Shown: piece after piece, positions 1 to 25,204 of the stretch
Layout: every line of letters starts with the position of its first letter
How positions within the stretch are numbered: the first letter of the stretch is position 1
IMG/VR virus record: IMGVR_UViG_3300020162_001996
Span: 1 to 30,886 of that record
From: a virus
Reading direction: 5' to 3' (one strand)
DNA: 30,886 nt
Notes under the pieces: generated by a model
Database searches by the model: none
What the model was told of the DNA's origin: nothing
The model's input: only the letters and a program-made list of their open reading frames with translations
Translations under genes and position numbers: made by a program

Positions 1-1456
1 AAAATTCTTCTTTTGGTGTATCAAAACTAGCTTCTGTACCTGTTAATTCTTTATATCCTTTATCAAAGTCAACTATCACACCATCCATATCACAATATAT
101 CTTGTAGTCAGCTTTTTCTTTAACATCTTCTTCAAATATCTCTGGTCTGTATTTACCAAATTGTCTTAATAATACTCCAGCAGCAGCATTGGCTTCATTT
201 TCAATTTCAGATCCTGTTTTACCATCTTCTGGTTTTAAAGGAGCCATTTCATCTTGTTTACGATGAACTAATTCATGAGCTAATGTACGTAAAATATCTG
301 CTGTTAATCTTGGTCCTTTAACAACTAGTAATTCATCACTTTTAGGATTATAAGCACCTAATGAATGCATATTTTTAGCTAATTCTTGATCATCACTAAA
401 AGTAATTTTAGGTACTTGTTGTAAGTCAAGTGCTTTAGCAGCAAAATCAATAAAGTCAGCTATAACATTATCTGATGCTTCTTGAGGTTCAGTTAATGTT
501 TCTTCTAAATTTGATTTCCACCAATTAATAGTGAATAAATCTTCTTCTATATTAACAGATATACCTTTTTTAGATAACCAATTTAATACTTGATCACGTT
601 GTTCAGGACTATCTCCTAAATTAGGTATTAACATACGACGTTCTTTTCCACCAAATGCTTGTTGAGAGTATTCAAATGGAATTAACATTGTATTTAAATA
701 GTTTTCTATTTTAGGTGTTAGTTGATATGGTACACGTATAATTAAATTACCATCAATCTGATTTTCTTGAAGTTGATCTACATTTAATACTGGTACGCCT
801 AGTATTTTAAGTATGTCATCATATTGTCCTTTTTGTATTACTGCTTCTGGAAAACAATCTTTTAAAGACTCATATGTGTTTAAGTAATTATTTCTAGCTT
901 TAGAGTACTCAGTTGAATTTTTATCTTGAACTGAACGTAATTCAAGTACTGCTTTTTTAAGCTGTGTTATTAAACCACGTACTTGAGTTCCTGTTAAGCG
1001 TTTACCTTGACTAACTACTTTTTCTTCAATAGATAGAGGCATTACTCTAGTACTAAATGCTTTTTGTAATGGAGTAAAATAATCTTGTTCTTCTACTTCA
1101 TTTTTAGCTCCAGCAACATATGCTTTTAATTCTAAGTCATTATCAAAAGCTGTAAAAATATCTTTAATTGGAGAAGCATCATTACTTATTCTAACACTAA
1201 CTTTAGCTATTGGAGATGTGGCTAAATATAAATCCCAAATACGTTTACTTTGTTCTTTAGTTATACCATCACGTGTTTTATGTCCAATTAAAACTATTAC
1301 TTTAGTGATATAAGGACGAGCAGCTAAGTCTTTAACTACTTCAAAGTGTCCTTCATGTGGTGGTTTAAATCCACCTGGATAGTAACAAATAGCTGGAGGA
1401 GTAGTTTGTTCATTCTCCTCATTTAATTCGTTTAATATAGTATTTAGATCAATCAT
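1..1456 (-). CDS. Nucleotidyltransferase - zincin peptidase - HAD phosphatase fusion (C-terminus beyond window)
   Basis: The reading frame is open from an ATG at 1456 to the left edge (485 codons, no stop), so the C-terminus is missing. Three enzyme signatures follow in order. Residues 24-160 look like an HxGH nucleotidyltransferase: GGFKPPHEGH at 28-37 and RLTGTQVR at 153-160, resembling the [IV]SGTxxR motif of NMN adenylyltransferases. Residues about 340-430 look like a zinc peptidase: HELVH at 394-398, then a downstream EIENEANAAAG stretch like the third-ligand region of ImmA/IrrE-type zincins. From about 450 a HAD domain starts with DMDGVIVDFD (456-465), as in 5'(3')-deoxyribonucleotidases. 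Residues 170-330 are unassigned. The start overlaps the kinase stop by ATGA, so translation is probably coupled. The three motifs are seen directly; substrates are unknown. An NMN/NAD role is only a guess from the nucleotidyltransferase motifs. Confidence 0.8.
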   Translation of the reverse strand, partial: MIDLNTILNELNEENEQTTPPAICYYPGGFKPPHEGHFEVVKDLAARPYITKVIVLIGHKTRDGITKEQSKRIWDLYLATSPIAKVSVRISNDASPIKDIFTAFDNDLELKAYVAGAKNEVEEQDYFTPLQKAFSTRVMPLSIEEKVVSQGKRLTGTQVRGLITQLKKAVLELRSVQDKNSTEYSKARNNYLNTYESLKDCFPEAVIQKGQYDDILKILGVPVLNVDQLQENQIDGNLIIRVPYQLTPKIENYLNTMLIPFEYSQQAFGGKERRMLIPNLGDSPEQRDQVLNWLSKKGISVNIEEDLFTINWWKSNLEETLTEPQEASDNVIADFIDFAAKALDLQQVPKITFSDDQELAKNMHSLGAYNPKSDELLVVKGPRLTADILRTLAHELVHRKQDEMAPLKPEDGKTGSEIENEANAAAGVLLRQFGKYRPEIFEEDVKEKADYKIYCDMDGVIVDFDKGYKELTGTEASFDTPKEEF

Positions 1457-2202
1457 TTAATAAATGCCTTTATTTTAGACACAGCAGAAGCTGATGGTGT
1501 AAATTTAGGTTTTTGTTTAATTAAATCAGCAATATCTTGATTCAATTGAATAACGTCAGCTTTTGCTTTAGCTATTTCTTCAGGTGTTTTTGGTTTACCT
1601 TTAGCTTTAGATGTGTCAAAAAATCTACGTTTTATTTCTTGTGTATCAAAACTTTTATCAGCATCTTCAGGATCATTATTTATAATAACTAAATTATCAC
1701 CAAATGCTTGTTTATATGTTTCAATGTTTTGATTAATATCTCTCCATGTTCTTAAGACAATACTAGGCATCAATGAACGCTCTCTACCAACATTACGTTC
1801 AAGTGATGTCATTGGAGAAACATATATCATTATCATCATGGTTTCATAGCCTAAAGCCTCTAATTCTGCCTTTTTCTTGAGTAAGGGGCGAGATGCTGCA
1901 CCTGTACCATCAATGATAATATCGTTTAAATTTTCGAGTGCTTTGGCGTATTTTTCCTTAGTTGCTTTTTGAGCTTGAGCCATTAATTTACCAGCTTGTG
2001 ATAATTGTTCAGGATCAAAATCCTTTTGTTTCATACCTAAGCCTGATGCTTTAAGTAATTCCTCATAAGTGTCGTCGACATTTATTACTTGGAATTTAGA
2101 TAATGGTAGTGATTTAGATATAAAGGATTTGCCAGCACCTGCTGGGCCCGCCAAAAATATCGCCTGAGGCGTGTTGCCTATTTCCTTTATTTTAATCTTC
2201 AT
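1453..2202 (-). CDS. P-loop kinase, zeta-toxin / polynucleotide-kinase-like
   Basis: A 249-aa P-loop NTPase. Walker A is GPAGAGKS (19-26), an acidic pair NVDD follows at 41-44, and IIIDGTG (95-101) is a Walker-B-like strand. RNVGRERS near 136-143 supplies the arginines expected of a lid region. This order resembles the zeta toxin / AAA_33 / polynucleotide kinase group, which phosphorylates small molecules or nucleic acid ends; the substrate cannot be read from the sequence. The C-terminal 60 residues are lysine-rich and helical and may be an appendage. The gene ends in an ATGA overlap with the nucleotidyltransferase-HAD fusion, which suggests linked chemistry. No antitoxin-like partner is visible, so a toxin role is unlikely. 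An ATATTTATT variant of the candidate late motif lies just upstream. Confidence 0.72.
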   Translation of the reverse strand: MKIKIKEIGNTPQAIFLAGPAGAGKSFISKSLPLSKFQVINVDDTYEELLKASGLGMKQKDFDPEQLSQAGKLMAQAQKATKEKYAKALENLNDIIIDGTGAASRPLLKKKAELEALGYETMMIMIYVSPMTSLERNVGRERSLMPSIVLRTWRDINQNIETYKQAFGDNLVIINNDPEDADKSFDTQEIKRRFFDTSKAKGKPKTPEEIAKAKADVIQLNQDIADLIKQKPKFTPSASAVSKIKAFIK

Positions 2203-2216
2203 GTTATCAATAAATA

Positions 2217-2699
2217 TTAACTATCTTTTCTTGGGCGACCACGTTTCCCACCAGTTTTAACATAAACAGTTGATTTTTTAAGTGTTGGATCCATTTTTGG
2301 ACGGCCACGTTTACCACCAGTTTTAACATAAACTACAGGTGTTTTCTTAAGTGATGGATCCATTTTTGGACGACCACGTTTACCTGTACCTTTACTTTCA
2401 CGTATTTTAGCTGCTTTTTCCTTGCGTTTAAAATAACGTGGATGTACAATTAATGAATCTAAATAAAATGCACGTATAGCACCATTTTCTTCTACACACT
2501 CATAACCACCATCTTTCCACCCAGGTGTACCTGGTTCATGTTTTTTACGATAGTAGAATTTACTGTCAGGGCTACTTTCATAATACATAGCTGGTAATAC
2601 TTCAATACCTTTAGTAAACTCCAAATATTGTTGTTCATCAACTTCTACTTCATAAGCTTTACGCGGAACAATGTTTGCTTCAATTTCAATTACTTTCAT
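2217..2699 (-). CDS. Protein with three C-terminal AT-hook motifs
   Basis: A 160-aa protein. Residues 1-95 form an unrecognised N-terminal domain rich in beta-strand and aromatic residues. The tail carries three copies of the AT-hook core K-R-G-R-P, at 107-111, 130-134 and 152-156. The copies sit in a repeat of about 21-23 residues, with KMDPxLKK after the first two cores and VYVKTGG before the second and third. AT-hooks bind the minor groove of AT-rich DNA, which fits this AT-rich genome. It probably binds phage or host DNA, for example as a nucleoid-like or transcription-modulating factor; which of these is not known. It starts at an ATG 13 bases after the stop of the 54-aa gene, behind an A-rich leader, and probably shares promoter P1 with it. 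Confidence 0.7.
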   Translation of the reverse strand: MKVIEIEANIVPRKAYEVEVDEQQYLEFTKGIEVLPAMYYESSPDSKFYYRKKHEPGTPGWKDGGYECVEENGAIRAFYLDSLIVHPRYFKRKEKAAKIRESKGTGKRGRPKMDPSLKKTPVVYVKTGGKRGRPKMDPTLKKSTVYVKTGGKRGRPRKDS

Positions 2700-5225: not shown

Positions 5226-5654
5226 CTAGGCCAAATCTCTAGTAAAAAACTTACCTAGTATATTATCATTGTAACTGTTAGTACCTGGAATTAAGCAATC
5301 AAATTTACATTGATAATGCATTTCATAGTATGTAAGTTCCTTTTTTGATTTACATGGTTTGAGTATTAAACACTCAAAAAACATTGGACTTAGTTCATTA
5401 ACATCAGTTAGTAATTCTTTAGATGAACCCCAATATGTTTTCCAATCGCTTTCAACACGAACAATTTCATGTGTTGGTTTACGACCTGGAGTGACTGGTA
5501 ATGCAGCAAGTTGTTTTTTGGTTAATTTTTTCTTTTTGTTGTACCAAAAATATTTCTTACCAATGTAAAATTTACTATTAGTTAAGTTTGTAATTTTGTA
5601 AACAAAACCGATATAATCTTCGGGATCTAATTTATCCCAATAATTCCATTTCAT
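5226..5654 (-). CDS. GIY-YIG family endonuclease, free-standing
   Basis: A 142-aa protein with a degenerate GIY-YIG pair: GFVYKI at 16-21 and FYIG at 29-32. A lysine-rich insertion (33-62) follows, then YWGSSKEL (74-81) and Glu111 in TYYEMH, the position of the metal-binding Glu of the family. The C-terminus SYNDNILGKFF is probably a DNA-contact segment. There is no separate DNA-binding domain such as homing enzymes carry. It sits between a tail adhesin and the primase, a junction where a mobile endonuclease gene could have landed, but it could equally act in DNA breakdown or repair. A candidate late motif lies 12 bases upstream of the ATG. Confidence 0.75.
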   Translation of the reverse strand: MKWNYWDKLDPEDYIGFVYKITNLTNSKFYIGKKYFWYNKKKKLTKKQLAALPVTPGRKPTHEIVRVESDWKTYWGSSKELLTDVNELSPMFFECLILKPCKSKKELTYYEMHYQCKFDCLIPGTNSYNDNILGKFFTRDLA

Positions 5655-5676: not shown

Positions 5677-7200
5677 TTAACAGGCGGTAGAACCATCCAC
5701 TGTGATGTAAACATTTTGTGGACCTGATGATACAACAGAATAGCTAAAGTCACAACCAAATCCACCTGGTCCATCAGGACAAACTGATGTACTTCCTGCT
5801 ACTGTAAATGTTGATGAGTTATTGAAAACAATTGTATCTCCAATTTCTAATCCACTAATTACAAAACTATAAGTACAATCTGTGGTTGTTACTGGACCAG
5901 CGCTGAAAAAATCTCCAGCATTTATACTAAATTGCATATTTCCTGCAGGAGCAGTAGTTTTGTATTTTGTATAAACAATTGCTTGATTCTCAGGTGGAAG
6001 TGATGTTGTTGGAGTTGGTGTGTTAGTAGGAGTAGGTGTTGGTGTTGGTGTGTTAGTTGGCGGTGGTGCTGTAGGTGTTGGCGTTGGAGTGTTAGTTGGA
6101 GTAGGTGTGGGTGTATCTGTTGGAGGTGGAGCAGTTGGAGTTACTGTTGGTGTGTTAGTAGGTGTTGATGTTGGTGTATTTGTTGGGGTTGGTGTTGGCG
6201 TATCCGTTGGAGGTGGAGCAGTTGGTGTCACTGTTGGTGTACTTGTAGGAGTTAGTGTTGGTGTGACTGTAGGGGTTGGAGTAATACAACTACAAGAAGT
6301 GTTACCATATGTGACGTTAGATATTGTTGCACCTATTCCAGACACTGTTCCAACAATAACACAATCATTAATTACTTGTGGTCCAATACTATAAAAAGCA
6401 CTTACTGGTGTACCACAACAATTTATATATCCTACTGTACCCGCAACGTCAACTTCAAAAGTTACTTGTGTTACGCAATTTGTTGTTGGAGTAGGTGTTG
6501 GTGTAACAGTATTTGTTGGAGTTGGTGTAGGTGTAGGCGTATCTGTTGGAGGAGGAGCTGTTGGTGTGTTAGTAGGAGTAGGTGTAGGTGTATCCGTTGG
6601 AGGCGGAGCAGTTGGTGTTTGGGTTGGTGTAGGTGTAGGTGTATCCGTTGGAGGCGGAGCAGTTGGTGTGTTAGTAGGTGTTGATGTTGGTGTAGAAGTA
6701 GGTGTCGCTGTAGGTGTTGGTGTTACAGTTGGTGTAGGGGTAGGTGTTGCAGTTGGGGTTGGTGTAGGTGTTGGGGTAGGGGTAGGAGTAGCTGTTGGAT
6801 AAAATCCATCAGTGTAATTCAAATCCCATTTAATCAAAAATGTTTGATCAGTATTTGATGAGATAGGAATTGGCTCAGCCATTTTAGCTACCGCTATTAA
6901 TTCTTGAGCGTCATTATATAAACCTACTGTTGACACATATGGTGAAAATTCTGAGCCTGAAATAGATCCAGTGGCAAAATCTTTTAATATACCGTAATTA
7001 TCTTCTGACGTTACATAAACAACACTACCATTAACTGATGAACTAAATGGTGTCATAACACCTTGAGACCCTGATAATAATGTTGGGTTATATGAGGTGT
7101 TAAATTCATAGTCTTTTATAGTACATTTGATGAAAGTCTCATAAACAACATGGTTGTTTTTAAACTTAACATCGAAATTTGGTACTATAGTTCTAATCAT
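5677..7200 (-). CDS. Tail adhesin with two Thr-Pro linkers
   Basis: A 507-aa modular protein. Residues 1-134 resemble the C-terminal domain of the 344-aa tail protein two genes upstream: shared YETxxxx...NPT, then [16 protein letters not shown] against [17 protein letters not shown] Thr-Pro linker (135-239) leads to a small Cys-rich domain (240-306, with adjacent cysteines in NCCGT and a CSC). A second Thr-Pro linker (307-400) leads to a C-terminal beta-rich domain (401-507) with several cysteines. The N-terminal part probably anchors the protein to the tail, while the outer domains on stiff linkers probably bind the host surface. The Cys-rich outer domains suggest disulfides, so they may fold outside the cell. 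I do not recognise the two outer domains. The start is the first ATG, behind an A-rich leader. Confidence 0.72.
6001..6282 (-). repeat. Thr-Pro repeat-coding stretch, distal linker of the 507-aa adhesin
   Basis: The coding strand is almost wholly A/C/T (ACN-CCN codons), encoding units such as [11 protein letters not shown] and [13 protein letters not shown]. Third positions vary, so the repeat is kept at the protein level more than at the DNA level. Confidence 0.85.
6484..6798 (-). repeat. Thr-Pro repeat-coding stretch, proximal linker of the 507-aa adhesin
   Basis: About 105 residues of Thr-Pro dipeptides, with the [13 protein letters not shown] block occurring three times, separated by Gln-Thr-Pro-Thr or Asn-Thr-Pro-Thr. 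Confidence 0.85.
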
Positions 7201-7221
7201 TTCTTTTTATTTAAAATCATT

Positions 7222-8502
7222 TTATGGAGGACATGCACCTGTAAAACAATCAGTTTCAACTTCAACATTATCACCAGCATTAACCACTATACCTGATATT
7301 TGTGGGAATGGATTTGAAGTGAAATATGTTGTACCAACCACAACACTATTAACATACACTCTTAAAGCACAACAGTTTCCTGTGCCTGGTAAGTTAGTAG
7401 TTACATTAAGTTGGATTGTATTTGATCCACCATAATTTACACCACTTGGAGTATACTTAACTCCATATAAAGTTGATGTTAATGGGAAGGTTGATGGGCC
7501 GCTTAATGATCCCATAAAATTACCATTAATACCAACATCATTAATTGATCCAAATCCACAATCAAAGTTTCTAATTGTCCAAATAGATGTTGGAGTTGTT
7601 GGTGTTGGAGTAGGTGTAGGTGTGTTAGTTGGAGTTGGGGTTGGCGTTAATGTTAATGTTGGAGTTGGAGTTGGTGTGTCTGTTGGTGGTGGTGGAGTTG
7701 GTGTTATTGTAGGAGTTACAGTTGGAGTGTTTGTTGGTGTTGGTGTAGGTGTATCTGTTGGTGGTGGAGGAGTTGGCGTCACAGTTGGTGTTGGAGTAAC
7801 TGTGAATGTTGGTGTTGGTGTAGGGGTATCAGTAGCTGTTGGTGTTGGAGTTGGAGTTGGTGTTGGTGTAGGAGTTGGAGTAGGCATAAATCCTTCTGGA
7901 ATTATACTTAATACAGCTATATTTTGCTCATAGAATACATTACCAAGGTATGAACTCTGAGATATTGTTGTACCAATAGATGAGCCTATATTACTTCCAC
8001 TATATCGTAAATTATAATTGCCATCATCATAAATTTTATAAGTACTAGAACCACTAAGAAAACTTAATTCAAATGTGGTTGGTAATATCTTATCACCAGT
8101 TAATTGGCGTGGAAAATTAATAACATAAATTAATGAACCATTTCCTGTTGGGAAATATTTTATTGTATCTAAGTTACCTAAATTTACAAATCCATTATAA
8201 TATGAGGATGTAGATAAAGTACCATCATTATAGATGGTATTAAACATTGAACTTGTATTAACATATGTTGGTAAGAAATCAGGATAGTAAGTAGCATTTA
8301 CCATATCATAAACTAAACGATCATATTGGCCGTTAGTTTCAAATTCATTAAATGAATCAAATAATGAACTAGTAAATTTAACTCCTGCGTTTACAGTGAT
8401 TTGATAATTATCTAAAGATCCTGACTCAATATCCCAGCTTTTATTGGCTGTATATGGTACTACAAAGTAGTCTGATACATTAATTCGTTTAAATGCTGAC
8501 AT
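7222..8502 (-). CDS. Tail protein/adhesin with Thr-Pro linker
   Basis: A 426-aa protein. Residues 1-205 form a conserved tail-protein domain: [15 protein letters not shown] near the start, [14 protein letters not shown] around 60-73, and [12 protein letters not shown] followed by [14 protein letters not shown]. The middle of it aligns by eye with the central part of the 344-aa protein ([12 protein letters not shown]). A Thr-Pro linker occupies 207-304. The C-terminal beta-rich domain (305-426) has cysteines at several positions, including an adjacent pair in GNCCALRV, and is probably a receptor-binding or adhesive head. With the next gene it seems to divide between two polypeptides what the 344-aa protein holds in one. 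It starts at the first ATG, 10 bases past the stop of the 344-aa gene. Confidence 0.72.
7591..7884 (-). repeat. Thr-Pro repeat-coding stretch in the 426-aa adhesin
   Basis: About 98 residues of Thr-Pro repeats with two [13 protein letters not shown] blocks, a variant of the [13 protein letters not shown] block in the neighbouring adhesin. Confidence 0.85.
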
Positions 8503-21687: not shown

Positions 21688-23385
21688 TTATTTAAAATAT
21701 GATTTATATTGATTAAATATTGTTTTAGCTTCTTTTACTCTTTCTTTTAAAACTTGAACACCTGCTCTAGAATTTTGTTCTGTATTATATATATCACCAC
21801 TAGGATAATATTTATTAAATTCAGATTGTGATAAGGCAAACATTCCTTTATATTTAGTGTTTCCCGCTTTTGGTTTAAATCCACTTTCAATATAAGCTGT
21901 TGTTATTATATAGTCAAGAGGTACACCATATTCACCTGATAAATTTGAAAATAAATCATATAAATCTTTAGGTATATTTTTCTTAGCTTGAGCCATTTTT
22001 TGAGGTATTTTATACGCCGCCCAATAGGTAAAAAAGTTACCTGGTGTATAACTTGTTTCTACATCTTCACCAAATGTTTTATTAAAATCATCACCGACAT
22101 TAGTACTCCATTTGGCGTAAGTTGTAGTAACATATTTTGTACCATTTAATCTAAAACCATACATGTTACCATTAATATTGGCTGAAGTGAATTTATTTTT
22201 TGTTGGTACTTTTTGACTTGGTTGGACAAAAGAATAATATAAAACAGCTTTAACACCAGCAGGTCCTTGGTTATGCCCTAAATAAACGAGAGTAAACTCA
22301 GCTTTATCTGAGGCTGTAACTGGTGGAAGTTCTGATTTTTTAGCTGGTGCTCTTTTAACATCATTAGGATCATTTAAAGCATCAATATATTCTTGAGTAT
22401 AATCATCAACGTGTCTAGCTATTTGATCTGTTAATTGAGTTGGAGCTAATTCTAATTCTTGGTCCTCTAAGAATACAAATTCATCAACTTGTTCCTCATC
22501 AGGAGGGGGAGCAGCTGTTGGTAGTTTTTCTTCTTGTTGTGGGGGTGTAGCTACTTGTGGAGTAGGAGTAGCTGTTACAGTTGGAACAACATTTTTTGAT
22601 ATTATTTCATCTATTTGTTTTCCAATTAATTTATAAACAGGTTTATCACCATGTGGTTCAATAGCTCCAATTGGTGGCTCAACAAGTATTGCTCCTTGTT
22701 TTTCATATTGTTTATAATAGTCTCTAACTTCTTTTTCAGTTACATTTTTTAATCCACCCCACCCCCAAGAACCTTGAACTGTTAAAACAACTGCTTTAGG
22801 GAATTTTGTTTTTATTAAACTGAATAATTTAGGAATATTATCTTTAACAAATTTACCAAATCCACCATTTGTTCCAATTACAGTAACAACATGTGTCACT
22901 TCAGGATCACCACTATACTCTGTTAAAGCTTCTATTAACCAAGAAACTCCTTTTCCACCTTCCCATAAAGATGATTTACCACCTTTATCAGTTAATCGTG
23001 ATGATTGAGTTGAGTTTTTATCAACATATGGAGTTTGACTATCACCAATTAAAATAGCTTTAACTTTTGGAGATTTAGGATTATTATCAGCTGTTACTAT
23101 TTTATTAGCATCTGTTTTATCAATTAATGTTTCATAATTATTATTTCCTAAAGTTAAAGTAGAATGTGTTTGGCTTTTAGTTATAGCAACATATGAGTTT
23201 CCATAATATAAAGGAATATTATCTTTATTTTGAGTCTCTGATAGGAAATCTAATTCAGTATCTTTTAATCCGGAATATATAAATACATTTCCTTTGTTAT
23301 CAGCTGTGACGCCATTAGATTGTCTACCTTCAATACTTACCTCACCAGGTTTAACATCTCTAAAATATTGTTTTTTAGTTGACAT
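21688..23385 (-). CDS. Tail-tip protein with SGNH hydrolase-like and lytic transglycosylase domains
   Basis: A 565-aa multidomain protein. Residues 1-100 are a platform domain nearly identical to that of the upstream 609-aa protein. Residues 107-262 look like an SGNH/GDSL hydrolase: IGDSQT with Ser116, GTNGG (171-175) as block III, and His245 in EPHGDKP. A Pro/Gln/Glu linker (265-320) shares the PDEEQVDEFVFLED...PTQLT string with its paralogue. The C-terminus (about 475-560) resembles an SLT/lysozyme-like domain: EYGVPLDYIITTAYIESGF with predicted catalytic Glu500, then GMFALSQ. The two enzymes could deacetylate or deacylate envelope polymers and cut peptidoglycan on entry. The start overlaps the 609-aa gene by 11 bases. 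Confidence 0.75.
   Translation of the reverse strand: MSTKKQYFRDVKPGEVSIEGRQSNGVTADNKGNVFIYSGLKDTELDFLSETQNKDNIPLYYGNSYVAITKSQTHSTLTLGNNNYETLIDKTDANKIVTADNNPKSPKVKAILIGDSQTPYVDKNSTQSSRLTDKGGKSSLWEGGKGVSWLIEALTEYSGDPEVTHVVTVIGTNGGFGKFVKDNIPKLFSLIKTKFPKAVVLTVQGSWGWGGLKNVTEKEVRDYYKQYEKQGAILVEPPIGAIEPHGDKPVYKLIGKQIDEIISKNVVPTVTATPTPQVATPPQQEEKLPTAAPPPDEEQVDEFVFLEDQELELAPTQLTDQIARHVDDYTQEYIDALNDPNDVKRAPAKKSELPPVTASDKAEFTLVYLGHNQGPAGVKAVLYYSFVQPSQKVPTKNKFTSANINGNMYGFRLNGTKYVTTTYAKWSTNVGDDFNKTFGEDVETSYTPGNFFTYWAAYKIPQKMAQAKKNIPKDLYDLFSNLSGEYGVPLDYIITTAYIESGFKPKAGNTKYKGMFALSQSEFNKYYPSGDIYNTEQNSRAGVQVLKERVKEAKTIFNQYKSYFK
23086..23385 (-). repeat. Duplicated platform-domain sequence, copy B
   Basis: Codes for the first 100 residues of the 565-aa protein. 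Two blocks are identical in DNA to copy A: 23098-23152 (55 bp) and 23221-23269 (49 bp), against 24917-24971 and 25040-25088. Confidence 0.85.
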
Positions 23386-25204
23386 AAGCTATTCTTTCTA
23401 ATCCTGCTTCTATTTGACCACGTGATTGATTTTTTCTAATTACACCACCCGCTGGATCAAATACAGTATATGTTCCATCTGAATTTTTACCAGTTATTAC
23501 CATCCAGTGTTGGTTACAGCATGTATAACTTATACCTTTAGAATCTCCTTTATAGTTTCCTTTTTTATTACCTTTATATAAGTTATATCCTTTAGGCCAT
23601 CCTTTCTTTGATGACCATTCAAAACCAACTGGTTTAGATTTTAATATATTATCAATTCCATCTAAACTTCCACTTGTTAATTTTATACTTTTACCAAATA
23701 TAGCTGCTAAACTATCAAAGTATACAAGTACAGATTTAGTATTTGGTTTACCACTATTCCATACAGAATAAGGAGTAGTTTTGCTAGCATCCTTTGTAGC
23801 ATTACCTAATAACATACATATTGTAGTATAACAACATCCATGACTACTCATTTTTAAATCACCTGATTTATATGACCCCCATTCAGGATCACTTTGGCTA
23901 TATAACGGTGTTGAATGATAAATTATATCTCCTAAATTACTGTAGTCTTTAGAATTATTTTGAATTAATACTTTTATAGATCCAACTTTATCACCAGTTG
24001 GTATTTTTTCTTTCTTTTTCTCTCTGTTAATGATTTTTTCTTCTTCTTCTTTTTCTCTTCTAAGATCTTCAATAGTTAATTCTTCATTATTATTAACAGT
24101 AGTATCAATAAAAGCAGTTAATTGTGTAGGAGAAAGTTCAGAAGAGCTTTCTTCTAAGAATATAAATTCAGTTACTTCTTCATCATCAGGAGGGGGTGCG
24201 GCTGGTGGTATTTTTTCTTCTTGCTTTGGAGGAAGAGATTGTTGTTGTTGAGGTTGAGTTTGTTGAGAAGTAATAGTTGTATCTAAATTAGATTCAATTT
24301 GTGATTTGAATCTAGTTAACATTTCTGAGGGTATGTCTATATGTTTTGTAGTTACTTTAACAACGTTATCTTTATTATTTTTTTCTACTACACTTAATAA
24401 GTTTTTTAAAGCTGAAGGATAATCGTTATATGATGTCCATTCGCCTGGATTATACATCATATATACTTTTATACCTTTATTTTTTATAGCAGTGACATTA
24501 TCTTTAAGTGTAGATCCAGGCCATGGGTCCATTATTATAAAATTGACCATACCATCAATCTTACTTAGATATTTTTGAATATCTCTATTATTATTACCAC
24601 TACCTGAGAATATACCAATACTGATGTTTTTAGTTGTTAAGTTAGCTTTTTTTACTTCAGCTTCATATTCACTTTTGATATTAGACCATGCTGTTTTATC
24701 TGTATTAGGGACAACAATAACATATTTTTCATAAAAATCAGGAAGTGAATTTTTTATTTTAGGAGGCATGTAATCCTTTCCTTCTTTTCCTCCAACAGCT
24801 ATCCCAGGATAAAATACAAGTACACTTATCGGGCCTGTTTTTCCATTTGGTATTGTTATAGTAGCGTTAGCAGTTATTATAGTTTTATAACCAGTAATGT
24901 TAGGATCAGTTGTTGTTATTTTATTAGCATCTGTTTTATCAATTAATGTTTCATAATTATTATTTCCTAAATCAAGAGTATTATGAACTTCAGATTTAAT
25001 AACTCCAAAGTAAGAATTACCATAGTAAAGAGGTATATCATCTTTATTTTGAGTCTCTGATAGGAAATCTAATTCAGTATCTTTTAATGCTGAATAAAAT
25101 ATAACATTACCTTTTTTATCGGCTGTAAAACCATTAGACTGTCTACCCTCGACACTTACATCGCCTGGATTGATTTTTCTAGAATATTGTTTTTTATCAG
25201 CCAT
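23375..25204 (-). CDS. Tail-tip protein with alpha/beta-hydrolase-like and C39-like peptidase domains
   Basis: A 609-aa paralogue of the next gene. Residues 1-100 are the shared platform domain. Residues 120-305 look like an alpha/beta hydrolase: VLVFYPGIAVGG, the possible nucleophile Ser200 in IFSGSGNNN, Asp226 in MDPWPG and His288 in TTKHIDIP. The GxSxG elbow is not canonical, so the catalytic claim is weak. A Gln/Pro/Glu linker (315-400) includes the shared FIFLEESSSELSPTQLT. The C-terminus (430-609) matches the C39-like papain fold: PLYSQSDPEWG, HGCCYTT with Cys457, His566 in NQHWMVITG and Asp583 in VFDPAGG. The peptidase probably cuts peptidoglycan cross-links. It follows the hub gene by two bases. 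Confidence 0.75.
   Translation of the reverse strand: MADKKQYSRKINPGDVSVEGRQSNGFTADKKGNVIFYSALKDTELDFLSETQNKDDIPLYYGNSYFGVIKSEVHNTLDLGNNNYETLIDKTDANKITTTDPNITGYKTIITANATITIPNGKTGPISVLVFYPGIAVGGKEGKDYMPPKIKNSLPDFYEKYVIVVPNTDKTAWSNIKSEYEAEVKKANLTTKNISIGIFSGSGNNNRDIQKYLSKIDGMVNFIIMDPWPGSTLKDNVTAIKNKGIKVYMMYNPGEWTSYNDYPSALKNLLSVVEKNNKDNVVKVTTKHIDIPSEMLTRFKSQIESNLDTTITSQQTQPQQQQSLPPKQEEKIPPAAPPPDDEEVTEFIFLEESSSELSPTQLTAFIDTTVNNNEELTIEDLRREKEEEEKIINREKKKEKIPTGDKVGSIKVLIQNNSKDYSNLGDIIYHSTPLYSQSDPEWGSYKSGDLKMSSHGCCYTTICMLLGNATKDASKTTPYSVWNSGKPNTKSVLVYFDSLAAIFGKSIKLTSGSLDGIDNILKSKPVGFEWSSKKGWPKGYNLYKGNKKGNYKGDSKGISYTCCNQHWMVITGKNSDGTYTVFDPAGGVIRKNQSRGQIEAGLERIAYVN
24905..25204 (-). repeat. Duplicated platform-domain sequence, copy A
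   Basis: Codes for the first 100 residues of the 609-aa protein; shares two perfectly identical DNA blocks of 55 and 49 bp with copy B 1.8 kb away. Confidence 0.85.

Follow-up and report, generated by a model that had tools for sequence, protein, structure and literature searches.

The 30,886-nt stretch of viral DNA analysed here (the window) encodes at its left end a real, conserved, and modular multi-enzyme protein, which is probably a capsid-targeted polyprotein that would be cut by a gp21-type prohead protease and ejected as separate enzymes. This reading builds on features computed here, namely, the domain content and folds of the chain, the conservation of its N-terminal tag and of its junctions, the exchange of modules, and the presence of gp21 in relatives. 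The phage possesses a contractile tail and T4-like baseplate genes, and it is a T4-type phage, probably of Bacteroidota. In the tail region, two proteins (5677-8502, minus strand) with different ends carry long mid-protein Thr-Pro repeats (TPTPTPT), and these repeats probably serve as extended linkers in adhesins or fibre proteins. Two adjoining proteins at 21688-25204 (minus strand) share the N-terminal region MxxKKQYxRxxxPGxVSxEGRQSNG, and one ends in a lysozyme-like domain and the other, as judged by eye, in a C39-peptidase-like one.

Domain composition and relatives of the chain

The gene and the domains of its product are as follows.

2..1456, minus strand: polyprotein gene, 485 codons inside the window, continuing off the contig
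785..1399, minus strand: HxGH nucleotidyltransferase domain of CoaD/NadD fold, residues ~20-224, Z 14.6 to E. coli PPAT
563..751, minus strand: small alpha/beta domain, residues ~236-298, fold and function of no recognised kind
137..469, minus strand: zincin-like metallopeptidase domain, IrrE/M78-like, residues ~330-440
263..277, minus strand: predicted metal-binding motif HELVH, with a third-ligand candidate, ENEAN, at 188-202
2..112, minus strand: start of the HAD 5'(3')-deoxyribonucleotidase domain, with DMDGVIVDFD at 62-91

The frame starts with ATG and runs without a stop codon until it exits the left end of the contig. Its portion in the window amounts to the N-terminal four fifths of a protein of ~600 aa, in which the C-terminal HAD domain is incomplete, and comparison with the relative L002 places about 116 residues beyond the contig. 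A preliminary description of this DNA had proposed that three enzyme-type domains are joined in one chain, on the basis of a continuous frame and the motifs GGFKPPHEGH, RLTGTQVR, HELVH with a downstream ENEAN, and DMDGVIVDFD. The frame is indeed continuous and every motif is present, and the joining of the three domains is borne out by structure prediction and by full-length relatives; the motif segments did not fall into unrelated folds, the outcome named beforehand as speaking against the claim. The first homologue search of the polyprotein yielded 16 loci, and the second raised the total to 74 distinct adenylyltransferase-containing frames. The whole chain, which the description had suggested seeking in related phages, was recovered from many independent IMG/VR contigs, ruling out an assembly artefact or a sequencing join. 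On these contigs the closest relatives are 599-602 aa at full length and distant ones reach more than 1,000 aa; since the complete 599-602-residue relatives end with the HAD domain, the fusion is real and conserved. Overlooked before were a fourth small domain, the N-terminal tag, repeated [LIF]xE junctions, and a tagged upstream kinase gene.

The AlphaFold model of L002 (full length, 85% identical) consists of separate domains connected by low-confidence linkers, with a mean pLDDT of 78.9 and a pTM of 0.41, and the latter value means that the relative placement of the domains is not predicted. Structure comparison of L002 residues 20-224 was led by phosphopantetheine adenylyltransferase (Z 14.6), while Foldseek ranked nicotinate-nucleotide adenylyltransferases (NadD) at the top and the best NCBIfam model was coaD, at a score under the model's cut-off. 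Both the HxGH and the S/TxxxR motifs (GGFKPPHEGH and RLTGTQVR) are conserved across relatives. An NMNAT identity is not established, as the CoaD and NadD matches are equally good. The earlier suggestion of a link to NAD+ is weakly supported: cyanophage relatives are annotated as NMNAT and occur in virions, but CoaD scores as well as or better than NMN adenylyltransferases. An NAD+ role of the polyprotein is possible, and nothing specific points to it; the enzyme may serve CoA-, NAD-, or other nucleotide chemistry.

The first ~37 residues of the HAD domain lie inside the window, and its family was examined on L002, where PHROG 2643 was matched at E=2e-27 and residues 449-600 aligned with 5'(3')-deoxyribonucleotidases (Z 15.5 to 3bwv). 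Structure prediction, as modelled on L002, confirms the adenylyltransferase (CoaD/NadD) and 5'(3')-deoxyribonucleotidase folds, and the HAD domain may hydrolyze deoxynucleotides. In the zincin, H394, E395, H398, and E419/E421 are invariant in 24 relatives. Its best Pfam scores among the alignment members, E=0.036 for M78 and E=0.0056 for DUF6782, are both under the cut-off; its structure matched viral IrrE-like predicted structures (TMt 0.82), and no useful match came from searching PDB sequences with a zincin profile. The zincin may act on a host protein or in self-processing. The small alpha/beta domain is truncated in the relative L010. Evidence for the identities of the zincin (IrrE-like) and of this fourth domain is weaker than that for the adenylyltransferase and the HAD domain. 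Pfam matched the window protein with Sigma70_r1_1 and PBP1_XylR below cut-off, which was judged to be chance, and PADLOC returned no defence-family match for the fusion or for the kinase.

The N-terminal tag and the inter-domain motif

The predicted tag and the candidate cut sites (slashes mark the cuts) are located as follows.

1418..1456, minus strand: predicted capsid-targeting sequence MIDLNTILNE/LNE/, residues 1-13, candidate cuts after E10 and E13
764..772, minus strand: candidate cut site LQE/NQ, residues 229-231, kept in 19/19, pLDDT <50 at residues 232-235
488..508, minus strand: candidate cut sites LEE/TLTE/, residues 317-323, LEE in 22/24 and [LIF]xE nearby in 24/24
128..139, minus strand: candidate cut sites IFE/E and FEE/D, residues 440-443, between zincin and HAD

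T4 gp21 cleaves after L/I-x-E, the capsid-targeting sequences (CTSs) of that phage are 10-19 residues long, and the first ten residues of IPIII are enough for packaging (PMC9026906). At its N terminus, the polyprotein has a short helix that ends in [L/I]xE, resembles these sequences, and agrees with the N-terminal propeptides of T4-type CTS proteins (about 7-19 aa, ending in [L/I]xE). The T4 packaged proteins used as controls start similarly, with MKTYQEFIAE/A in ipII/ipIII, MELITE/L in alt, and MAKINELLRE/S in gp24. The site is kept in 24/24 aligned rows, and pLDDT is <50 at residues 7-17.

Almost every relative has 12-36 residues in front of the adenylyltransferase motif. When relatives were clustered at 90% identity, [LI]xE was found in this stretch in 44/44, against a mean of 23.6 and a maximum of 33 for shuffled segments; at 60% clustering the count was 14/14 (shuffle mean 6.7, maximum 13), figures to be read with the facts that so short a motif arises by chance about once per 100 aa and that close relatives are non-independent. 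Neither [LI]xD nor [LI]xK is enriched in the same stretch. The tags themselves are diverse around a constant motif, as in MIDLNTILNE, MSLVNELIKGLLPE, MIDIHKLGNLIAE, and MNKLTQYLVDSILNE.

Adenylyltransferase homologues in cyanophages are also tagged. The S-SCSM1 adenylyltransferase has the T4-like N terminus MKSFLQFLKE/A, and in S-SRM01 an HxGH nucleotidyltransferase starting with MKNFHQFITE/A adjoins a homologous zincin gene. The S-SCSM1 enzyme was detected by mass spectrometry in purified virions (PMC9602691), and NMNAT-like proteins were reported from virions of S-CBWM1, S-SZBM1, and S-CREM2 (PMC9602691, PMC10665884); those authors left undecided if true packaging of the enzyme takes place. 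A tag of this kind could account for the presence of these adenylyltransferases in virions. In cyanophage B23 the zincin (gp332) is encoded by a stand-alone gene with the tag MNYKQFLRE/S. Separately, we noticed two mosaic cyanophage proteins beside head or tail genes, S-SSM7_236 (994 aa) and S-SCSM1_29, which share several small modules, some of them separated by [LI]xE; the latter protein bears a virion-protein annotation.

Within the chain, the [LIF]xE sites of L002 that almost all aligned relatives retain lie at the N terminus, 231, 319/323, and 442/443, all of them domain boundaries, with conservation in 24/24, 19/19, 24/24, and 22/24 rows, respectively. In the AlphaFold model, pLDDT is below 60 at most of these sites. 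The 20 aa before the HAD domain contain [LI]xE in 22/24 distinct linkers (shuffle mean 7.5), where the model drops to pLDDT <50 at 443-449, and the linkers are divergent in sequence while the motif is retained (EIFEEDVKEKADYK, EIFEVLNEGKQEQYK, and AMGLEENEKVMDYK). At the junction of residues 317-323, the relatives L007, L009, and L034 contain an additional DUF5661 module, flanked by [LI]xE on both sides in the first two and on the left side in the third. Some candidate sites have F or V at P3, beyond the T4 consensus. The motif also occurs inside folded domains; its depletion there was discarded as extra support, because the HAD domain is also depleted of [AV]xE and the effect is unspecific.

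We infer packaging, cleavage, and ejection of the window polyprotein along the following lines. The first ~10 residues would serve as a T4-like capsid-targeting sequence and bind the chain to the prohead core, where a gp21-type protease would remove the tag and then cut the flexible linkers at [L/I/F]xE. The adenylyltransferase, the small domain, the zincin peptidase, and the 5'-nucleotidase would thereby be freed inside the head as pieces small enough to leave with the DNA through portal and tail, and they would act on the host when infection begins. Alternatively, the packaged chain might lose its tag and nothing else, and the enzymes would then be ejected still linked to each other. A precedent is T4 Alt (682 aa), which is packaged and trimmed at its ends only (PMC9026906), and cleavage between the domains is read from sequence; however, the linkers diverge strongly and yet retain [LIF]xE, and inserted modules bring sites of this type along with them, which makes an uncut chain quite unlikely.

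Head genes, prohead protease, and module exchange

The gene directly upstream of the polyprotein carries a tag of its own.

1453..2202, minus strand: zeta-toxin/AAA_33-like kinase gene, directly upstream, overlapping the polyprotein gene by 4 nt
2182-2202, minus strand: kinase tag MKIKIKE/, found right before the P-loop in 23/25 relatives

Under the proposed mechanism, this neighbouring kinase gene, as well as other genes that lie downstream, would use the same tag for one protein each. Directly upstream of the kinase gene, a small protein (2217-2699, minus strand) shows three C-terminal AT-hook-like repeats of the GKRGRPKMDP type. The order of primase, exonuclease, kinase, and fusion in the window is partially matched in Flavobacterium phage immuto_2-6A, where primase and exonuclease are followed by a hypothetical gene, a 907-residue polyprotein, and a separate HAD gene, and then by terminase, portal gp20, prohead protease gp21, scaffold, and gp23. 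The relatives G006 and G009 have the same head gene order, following a run of small genes. In the genome of immuto, which is complete, tag-type N termini are present in 15/23 head-region genes versus 36/202 elsewhere (Fisher 4e-6), and the same 23 proteins show the motif at residues 27-40 in 3 cases only. A further window protein (5226-5654, minus strand), GIY-YIG-like by eye, has an apparent relative in immuto_171, whose annotation as "NAD synthetase" is probably a wrong name.

We found gp21 (PF03420) in 17/63 records (4/15 plus 13/48), which are mostly fragments, and in 5/6 of the records over 100 kb. It is encoded in the close relatives G006, G007, and G009, among others, and the window fragment stops short of that region. 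The regions of the catalytic His, Ser, and Asp in the relatives' gp21 align with those of T4 gp21. The expected propeptide site of the major capsid proteins of these phages has V at P3 (IVSE/A, LVVE/Q), and some cyanophage tags have F there (FFSE/A, FFTE/A); because of these residues, the prohead protease here may have a wider specificity than that of T4. Two side observations concern the protease genes. A jumbo-phage contig of 268,739 bases (G048; loci L116 and L123) carries two gp21-type protease genes as well as a 1337-residue polyprotein (L086), and the gp21 homologue at G044:C1:50206-50733 (L111) has one TAG within the matched frame, a possible stop reassignment or error.

The position beside head genes also bears on the reading of the chain as an unpackaged cytoplasmic fusion for nucleotide or cofactor salvage, in which adenylyltransferase, kinase, and nucleotidase would cooperate and the N-terminal motif would be incidental. 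A kinase does adjoin the adenylyltransferase, like a split NadR-like pair, and homologous genes without a tag exist, for HAD in L014, L015, and L047 and for the zincin in S-SRM01 and L061, which also weighs against the capsid-targeting reading. The untagged HAD relatives fit such a role, but the tag statistics, the position next to head genes, and the detection of homologues in virions all stand against it, and we regard it as very improbable.

When every remaining frame of the retrieved loci was compared with the polyproteins, 39 non-redundant stand-alone homologues of internal modules emerged. Thirty of the 39 start with an [LI]xE tag, while random windows taken from these proteins would give 5.3, and [LI]xE also stands at 28 of the matching internal junctions (12.3 expected). 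The tag cut of a separate gene and the junction of a polyprotein can match to the residue, as in MIKLFDILSE/IGINLSNY versus KKKLNE/IGIDLSNY and, for the KQVG module, MIKLIDLLKE/AKQVGTLYHFT versus NISE/SKQVGTLYHYT. The KQVG module is a new ART-fold module, found both as a tagged gene and within polyproteins (L061:8528-9031, L104, L087, and L013), with the motifs YHxT, [ST]xTR, and EExI. It folds like ADP-ribosyltransferases, Tpt1 and DarT being the nearest solved folds, and the phage collection searched contained no homologue of it. All copies compared, 4 separate and 3 internal, have an E before KQxG. Likewise, the Zn-ribbon module has an E nine residues before its first Cys in 11/11 polyproteins, with L, I, or V at P3.

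The preliminary description had offered a polyprotein that cuts itself with its internal zincin. The polyprotein part of this explanation is supported, whereas the likely cutter is a gp21-type protease acting at [L/I/F]xE. For polyvalent proteins, packaging followed by cleavage through their own zincin domain has been proposed and is backed by the processing of P1 DdrB (PMC5512222), and almost every complete long relative of the window chain has a zincin. However, self-cutting would leave unexplained that the junctions bear the gp21-type motif, that single genes are tagged, including the B23 zincin and the kinase and ART-like genes that lack a zincin, and that L067, a complete relative, joins two enzymes with no zincin. 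We favor the gp21-type protease and judge zincin self-cutting to be unlikely.

Comparison with known systems

It is, on balance, likely that in T4-type phages one tag brings many enzymes into the prohead, that the head-maturation protease frees effectors at [L/I/F/V]xE, and that modules pass freely from tagged genes to polyproteins and back, so that the motif could serve to predict injected proteins in uncultured phages. The open-access literature searched yielded no account of a prohead protease cutting a phage polyprotein between its enzyme domains. If the proposal is true, tailed phages possess a polyprotein and maturation-protease strategy for injected cargo, the delivery route of multi-enzyme phage proteins is explained, and a testable protease-substrate rule replaces self-cutting by the zincin. 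It would also provide a packaging route for the adenylyltransferases found repeatedly in cyanophage virions, as well as a sequence signature by which injected proteins could be listed across thousands of T4-type phages; among these would be enzymes of counter-defence, for example ART-fold modules, peptidases, and kinases.

The cyanophage NMNAT-like virion proteins resemble the window chain in being HxGH nucleotidyltransferases of T4-type phages in purified virions, with the tag seen in S-SCSM1, but they are 400-440 aa long and lack the zincin and HAD domains, and no mechanism of packaging is offered in the publications on them. In giant phages (phiKZ, SPN3US), ejection proteins located in the head likewise undergo trimming by a gp21-related protease; they differ in the cleavage motif and in having N-terminal propeptides rather than forming multi-enzyme chains.

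Like the T4 internal head proteins (IPI, IPII, IPIII, and Alt), the chain has a short N-terminal segment ending in [L/I]xE and, in its relatives, is accompanied by a gp21-type protease and a T4-like head gene order; an ART-fold module among the cargo is a further likeness to Alt. The T4 proteins are single proteins with one tag each, whereas the window chain places several unrelated enzymes behind a common tag and has cut-type sites between them. With the polyvalent proteins of Iyer et al. 2017 (PMC5512222), the chain has in common that a single phage polypeptide combines at least two unrelated enzymatic domains, that a zincin is often among these, and that delivery with the DNA is presumed; the zincin of the chain shows HExxH and a downstream Glu. 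In that work, the internal zincin is proposed as the processor, in contrast to the protease favored here, and the sections consulted mention no capsid-targeting sequences or prohead-protease sites; Pfam detected no MuF, ArdC-N, or DdrB-like partner domains in the relatives scanned. The chain is best read as joining two known kinds of phage protein, the capsid-targeted internal proteins of T4 and the polyvalent proteins.
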